Positions 37,226 through 37,342 of a DNA stretch of 64,000 nt are shown piece after piece (position 1 is the stretch's first letter; each line of letters starts with the position of its first letter). Both the position numbers and the translations under genes were made by a program. Source of the DNA: Prochlorococcus marinus XMU1402 (GTDB lineage Bacteria; Cyanobacteriota; Cyanobacteriia; PCC-6307; Cyanobiaceae). The DNA is taken from the NCBI RefSeq assembly GCF_017696205.1, contig NZ_JAAORD010000001.1, positions 682,001 through 746,000 of the forward strand. The letters are read 5' to 3'. The notes beneath the pieces are model-generated. The model was not told the origin of the DNA. It ran no database searches and saw nothing but the letters and a program-made list of their open reading frames with translations.

Positions 37226-37253
37226 AAAACTTTTAGAAATACACATCACTTGC

Positions 37254-37259
37254 TAGAAT
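37254..37259 (+). promoter_or_regulatory. Extended -10 promoter element before rpsB
   Basis: TGC followed by TAGAAT at 37254-37259, an extended -10 element with a single mismatch to TATAAT. Initiation about 7 bases downstream would produce a leader of some 90 nt containing the pseudoknot at 37279-37342. Confidence 0.4.
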
Positions 37260-37278
37260 AATTGAAATAAATTTCACA

Positions 37279-37342
37279 CATCTGACAGTTTCGGGTGAAT
37301 TATTAATATTAATTCCCCGTCAGATGGAGGCTAACCCGAAAC
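37279..37342 (+). promoter_or_regulatory. Pseudoknot in the rpsB leader, probable autoregulatory element
   Basis: Two interleaved perfect helices: CATCTGAC (37279-37286) with GTCAGATG (37319-37326), and GTTTCGGGT (37288-37296) with ACCCGAAAC (37334-37342). The order a-b-a'-b' makes an H-type pseudoknot with a 1-nt first loop and a 7-nt third loop. The second loop holds a further hairpin, GAATTA/TAATTC (37297-37302, 37310-37315), stacked on helix 2. GGAGG (37326-37330) sits between the two 3' strands, and the rpsB ATG is 12 nt after the structure. Ribosomal-protein leaders often bind their own product; S2 is the natural ligand here, by inference. Confidence 0.7.

Follow-up and report, generated by a model that had tools for sequence, protein, structure and literature searches.

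The published rpsB motif and its pseudoknot in the leader of the ribosomal protein S2 gene of Prochlorococcus marinus XMU1402

Introduction

Pseudoknots in messenger RNA leaders serve in the autoregulation of ribosomal proteins, as in the leaders of S4 (alpha operon) and S15. The leader treated here is proposed to resemble them in autoregulation through a leader pseudoknot, but the proteins and the folds are others.

For ribosomal protein S2, the rpsB motif was published by Meyer et al. in 2009 with P1, P3 and a pseudoknot, and Cyanobacteria are named among its carriers (PMC2704228). In the part of that paper devoted to the motif, three helices (P1, P2 and P3) are described, of which P2 is absent or very short (at most 3 bp) in Cyanobacteria and P3 is typically at least 4 bp long; the pseudoknot joins J2-3 to the 3' extension after P1 (PMC2704228). 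This was the one paper on the motif found in a literature search. According to the relevant passage of a review, S2 of E. coli represses rpsB-tsf through the leader of that operon with the help of S1, and the operator excludes the ribosome-binding site (PMC10931766).

The window, i.e. the whole stretch of 64,000 nucleotides of P. marinus XMU1402 analysed here, carries ahead of rpsB a three-helix pseudoknot which a preliminary description had not recognised as any known structure. A counterpart exists, since the rpsB motif as presented in PMC2704228 includes a pseudoknot and extends to Cyanobacteria. The structure in the window is the cyanobacterial form of this already published motif, and is not new.

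Results and discussion

Organisation of the rpsB leader

The features of the locus are collected in Table 1. The open reading frame following the leader, named rpsB in the preliminary description, is taken to encode S2 as recognised from its sequence, and the next one is likewise taken to be tsf. Of 146 phylum genomes searched, 145 have a relative of S2, and the gene that occupies the equivalent place in E. coli carries the annotation rpsB. Promoter-like sites of the kind listed number four in the region as compared to 1.1 in shuffles.

Table 1. Features of the rpsB leader and neighbouring genes in window coordinates
Feature	Position	Strand	Remarks
Promoter-like site, extended -10 (TTTAGA-16-TAGAAT)	37232..37259	+	consensus scan only, 9/12
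5' flank CACA	37275..37278	+	conserved; CGCA in most relatives
P1 (helix 1), 5' strand CATCTGAC	37279..37286	+	7/8 pairs with both-sided changes; 96.8% of cells paired
Pseudoknot (helix 2), 5' strand GTTTCGGGT	37288..37296	+	J2-3 of the rpsB motif
P3 (helix 3), 5' strand GAATTA	37297..37302	+	6/7 pairs with both-sided changes; 79.9% of cells paired
P3, 3' strand TAATTC	37310..37315	+	counts as for the 5' strand
CCC ahead of P1 3' strand	37316..37318	+	possible partner of the pseudoknot-strand GGG in a competing fold
P1, 3' strand GTCAGATG	37319..37326	+	counts as for the 5' strand
GGAGG of the motif	37326..37330	+	conserved; first G paired in P1
Pseudoknot, 3' strand ACCCGAAAC	37334..37342	+	
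rpsB, ribosomal protein S2, 234 aa	37355..38059	+	from the list of open reading frames
tsf, elongation factor Ts, 218 aa	38105..38761	+	from the list of open reading frames

P1, the pseudoknot helix and P3 are all perfect Watson-Crick helices, and the first two cross each other. The crossing helices of 8 and 9 bp and the third helix (GAATTA/TAATTC) were thus correctly placed in the preliminary description, as was the end of the pseudoknot 12 nt upstream of the rpsB ATG (37355). The proposed stacking of P3 on the pseudoknot helix is possible; P3 begins directly after the 5' strand of the latter. The placing of GGAGG between the two 3' strands holds for the most part, except that its first G is the last base of P1. 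A single nucleotide separates P1 from the 5' strand of the pseudoknot, leaving no room for P2.

The element has the features of the rpsB motif of Meyer et al. (2009), as far as the text on the motif goes: it lies directly upstream of rpsB, its P1 covaries (both-sided changes in 7 of 8 pairs), P3 comprises 6 bp and P2 is absent, and a pseudoknot of 9 perfect pairs, thinly supported in its core, joins the junction to the 3' extension. It differs in the length of this pseudoknot, for which PMC2704228 predicts five pairs outside Firmicutes, a comparison made by text alone.

Relation to the E. coli leader and to Rfam t44

A covariance model of the cyanobacterial leaders (R1), built without the pseudoknot, scores 71.2 bits at the window site and also finds the rpsB leader of E. 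coli K-12 in register (24.9 bits, E 8.7e-5), where the E. coli record annotates tff/T44 (NC_000913 189712-189847). The model matches 180 of 386 genomes of the phylum, namely 180 of 186 Cyanobacteriia and none of the 200 others, as counted by hand, with one match per genome among the matches listed. Two of the six Cyanobacteriia missed by R1 (G011 and G057) carry the motif with long P3 arms (L068 and L016).

Conversely, the Rfam model t44 (RF00127) gives 28.4 bits (E 0.00023) at the window site, so that R1 and t44 each find the site of the other. As this is lower than the gathering cut-off of 44 bits, the site is not filed as a curated t44 although it is homologous. The Rfam scan proposed in the preliminary description accordingly had a divided outcome, with nothing at gathering cut-offs in the whole window and the t44 match below its cut-off. 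When matches up to E 10 are admitted, the window site is the sole t44 match in the genome of 1.70 Mb (E 4.1e-4); at the same threshold t44 also matches 6 of 14 control genomes, above the cut-off in one. Weak matches of SNORD12, TtnuCD13 and Ricks_sRNA10 at the site (E 0.36 to 4) are taken as chance. No Rfam model reaches its cut-off here, and routine annotation would therefore leave the site blank.

By eye, the E. coli tff/t44 leader shares with the window the CACA flank, P1, TGGAGG and an ACCC which can pair with GGGT of the junction; a separate GAGG lies near its ATG. It has a different P1 sequence, a longer junction, and GGGGT/ACCCC in place of the CGGGT/ACCCG of the window.

Conservation and covariation among Cyanobacteriia

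The motif was sought upstream of the S2 gene in the leaders of 152 Cyanobacteriia, comprising 93 of the same family (f1), which we chose among 145 genomes in which S2 had a match, and the full set of 59 other Cyanobacteriia sampled. Both pseudoknot strand words and P1 are present in 152 of 152 leaders (93 of the family and 59 others), in a segmentation which is anchored on [CT]GGGT and ACCCG-like words, prefers a well-pairing P1 and hence leans towards the structure. Ten rows were anchored by hand, and one leader (L048) was added separately. The presence of the inner five pseudoknot pairs in all 152 leaders is largely by construction because of these search anchors. P1 forms 7 or 8 of its 8 pairs in 151 of 152 leaders; the remaining one (L089) has 4 of 8 pairs as segmented, where P1 is misplaced, and 7 of 8 by eye in another segmentation.

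Each of the 93 family leaders has standard pairs at all 9 pseudoknot positions, and the 59 other Cyanobacteriia have them at 6 to 9. The outer four pairs, for which the count is unbiased, are standard in all 93 family leaders and in 10, 32, 50 and 58 of the 59 others. The outer pairs being kept in the family and variable elsewhere, the full helix of 9 bp is a feature of the family. The 5' flank reads CGCA in 82, CACA in 10 and CTCA in one of the 93 family leaders, and CGCA in 48 and CACA in 8 of the 59 others.

An alignment of 55 diverse leaders was derived from the 152 by dropping junctions longer than 34 nt, identical rows and near-duplicates. Compensatory changes, proposed earlier as the check on the helices, were found across these 55 leaders in P1, P3 and the pseudoknot, with both-sided changes in 7/8, 6/7 and 3/9 pairs, respectively (16/24 in total). 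Altogether 90.5% of the cells are paired (93.2% of those in the pseudoknot); shuffles give 77.8%, none of 500 reaching the observed value. When slid along the alignment, the structure pairs at most 55.7% of the cells, a comparison that favours the unslid position since the structure counted was derived from the window sequence.

On 90 distinct rows, 699 of 720 P1 cells are paired, where shuffles average 552.8 and none of 1000 reaches the observed number, and the number of P1 pair types is not above that of shuffles (177 of 1000 as high). For the pseudoknot core the same rows give 450 of 450 paired cells against a shuffle mean of 449, a count without power because the core is nearly invariant within Cyanobacteria. 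Covariation support for the core is thin: two both-sided changes occur in a single sequence each, L086 with C-G replaced by U-A and L089 with U-A replaced by A-U, and the third covarying pseudoknot pair belongs to the outer ones and is not formed in 19 of the 55 leaders. The E. coli leader, read by eye, contributes a further change, GGGGT/ACCCC against CGGGT/ACCCG.

Chance expectation

Crossing perfect helices of 8 and 9 bp with at least 4 and at least 5 G+C, respectively, within 70 nt occur once on the + strand of the window, and such a pair was found neither on its - strand nor in 20 dinucleotide shuffles of the window. The view that these helices are improbable by chance is borne out, provided that the G+C condition is kept. 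Crossing 8/8 pairs taken irrespective of G+C form 3 clusters per strand (shuffle mean 1.4, maximum 3) and are ordinary in such AT-rich DNA; the chance argument consequently rests on G+C content. Other + strand clusters of crossing 8-bp perfect helices lie at window positions 1312 and 20042, with lower G+C, and the number of clusters including them is within the reach of shuffles. Nested folding of the leader gives -20.4 kcal/mol (z -2.95).

The GGAGG of the motif and the ribosome-binding site

In the preliminary description, folding was suggested to gate ribosome entry at GGAGG, i.e. the pseudoknot would hide a GGAGG that serves as the ribosome-binding site of rpsB. GGAGG does adjoin both 3' strands, and an SD-like site downstream of the pseudoknot is found in 0 of 93 family leaders. 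However, 24 nt separate GGAGG from the ATG in the window, and 18-28 nt do so in the family, more than is usual for a Shine-Dalgarno site, and it is replaced by GGTGG in 7 of the 93 family leaders (GGAGG in 86). E. coli carries GGAGG at the corresponding point of the motif, and so do 51 of the 59 other Cyanobacteriia. In every one of these 59, a distinct SD-like word follows the pseudoknot core at 1-7 nt. Given the distance and this separate, nearer site in other Cyanobacteriia, the GGAGG of the motif is probably not the Shine-Dalgarno site of rpsB; gating is left unsupported and appears very unlikely.

SD-like words precede 4 of 42 open reading frames of the window and 3 of 42 at a control distance, counted for frames of at least 150 aa from their first ATG, by which some true starts are missed. 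This scarcity suggests that the downstream SD-like site may have been lost in the family along with SD use in general, with the GGAGG of the motif retained.

S2-dependent repression and its alternatives

In the folded leader mRNA, P3 would cap P1, and pairing of the junction strand with the stretch just 3' of P1 would close the pseudoknot near the start codon. Surplus S2, probably together with S1 as in E. coli, would bind the folded leader, and the bound leader would block initiation of rpsB translation and lower tsf through coupling. Between the pseudoknot core and the ATG lie 16 nt in the window and 10-19 nt in the family; at this distance an initiating 30S subunit would probably run into a stabilised pseudoknot. 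By analogy with E. coli, S2 would be the ligand, S1 its helper and steric hindrance the mode of repression in the cyanobacterium as well. The leader as a whole is explained as a cyanobacterial rpsB motif through which surplus S2 represses rpsB, with a probability of about 0.8. The preliminary description was right in the structure and location of a leader pseudoknot of the S2 operon; its proposal of autoregulation with S2 as ligand is probable from the S2 response of the homologous E. coli leader, as covered in the review (PMC10931766), and would apply here by that homology.

A stable fold close to the 5' end could also merely protect the mRNA or aid efficient initiation, with no binding of S2. 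The strong conservation of CGCA and GGAGG outside the helices favours a protein ligand, as does the homology with an E. coli leader that responds to S2 in the account of PMC10931766, and such a role is considered very unlikely.

Transcription attenuation, in which the leader would terminate transcription under S2 excess, would be in keeping with the T-run CCCTTTTT after the pseudoknot strand in the window and with one terminator-like site called at 37279-37297 against 0.2 in shuffles. The called stem, however, pairs the strands of P1 and the pseudoknot in a manner unlike the conserved pairing, and five consecutive T follow the pseudoknot in 4 of the 93 leaders of the family and in none of the 59 others, making attenuation very unlikely. 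Repression by S2 at the level of translation is the preferred reading.

A competing fold in the family

The nested minimum-energy fold of the leader extends P3 by GGG/CCC, which uses the GGG of the pseudoknot strand and thereby excludes the pseudoknot. CC occurs in the last four junction bases of 92 of 93 family leaders as compared to 17 of 59 other Cyanobacteriia. It goes together with a pseudoknot lengthened to 9 pairs (93 of 93) and with the lack of an SD-like site further downstream (found in 0 of 93 against 59 of 59). The leader of this Prochlorococcus/Synechococcus-like family might act as a two-state switch, in which GGG would pair either with the ACCC beside the start codon or with the CC(C) before the 3' strand of P1, and S2 would favour the pseudoknot state, thereby shutting off a start without an SD site. 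The GGG and CC bases are compatible with such a switch and too invariant for a covariation test; the idea is an unlikely one.

rpsB leaders of basal lineages

A different, conserved and covarying rpsB leader was observed in f24, a basal family outside Cyanobacteriia, which may, as a guess, be Gastranaerophilales. R1 has no match outside Cyanobacteriia, f24 included, among the 386 phylum genomes. The element is common to 46 of 49 f24 leaders fetched (L098, L100-L102, L107, L114-L117, L179-L218) and consists of P1, a GATAGG..CCCTAG hairpin that hardly varies, a P3 that is variable, and CCCGTAGTA as a conserved 3' stretch; an outer GGY/RCC helix is predicted. An alignment was made of 28 of the 46 leaders, leaving out L189 and 17 that exceed 125 nt. 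Both-sided changes were seen there in 9, 9 and 12 sequences for three of the four P1 pairs, and in 11 and 12 sequences for two P3 pairs.

A model of this leader (R2) matches 60 of 146 genomes, comprising 59 of 63 in f24 and one of another family. All 59 matches in f24 lie directly upstream of rpsB, as compared by eye; the match outside f24 (G032) is weak (E 0.004) and away from its rpsB. Three of the four f24 genomes missed belong to one genus, and the fourth lacks an S2 match. R2 has no match in the window or in E. coli, Rfam gave none up to E 1 for eleven leaders outside Cyanobacteriia (five with the f24 element), and the literature search returned nothing relevant to the f24 leader. The element may be a derived rpsB motif, with P1 capped by two stems, or a replacement of it.

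The three f24 leaders lacking the element (L195, L200, L211) all belong to genus g73, are alike among themselves and perhaps represent a third type of rpsB leader. In seven leaders of other basal lineages (L093, L094, L096, L097, L106, L109, L111), CACACGCC-like and GCGGAGG-like words were seen by eye before rpsB. These are possibly rpsB motifs with a divergent pseudoknot; R1 reaches L093 only (17.8 bits, E 0.0085).

Conclusion

A published regulatory RNA has been confirmed from sequence in the window, and is counted in 180 of 186 sampled Cyanobacteriia. Retention of GGAGG in the family, where the SD-like site is not kept, points to a structural or protein-binding role for this conserved part of the leader.
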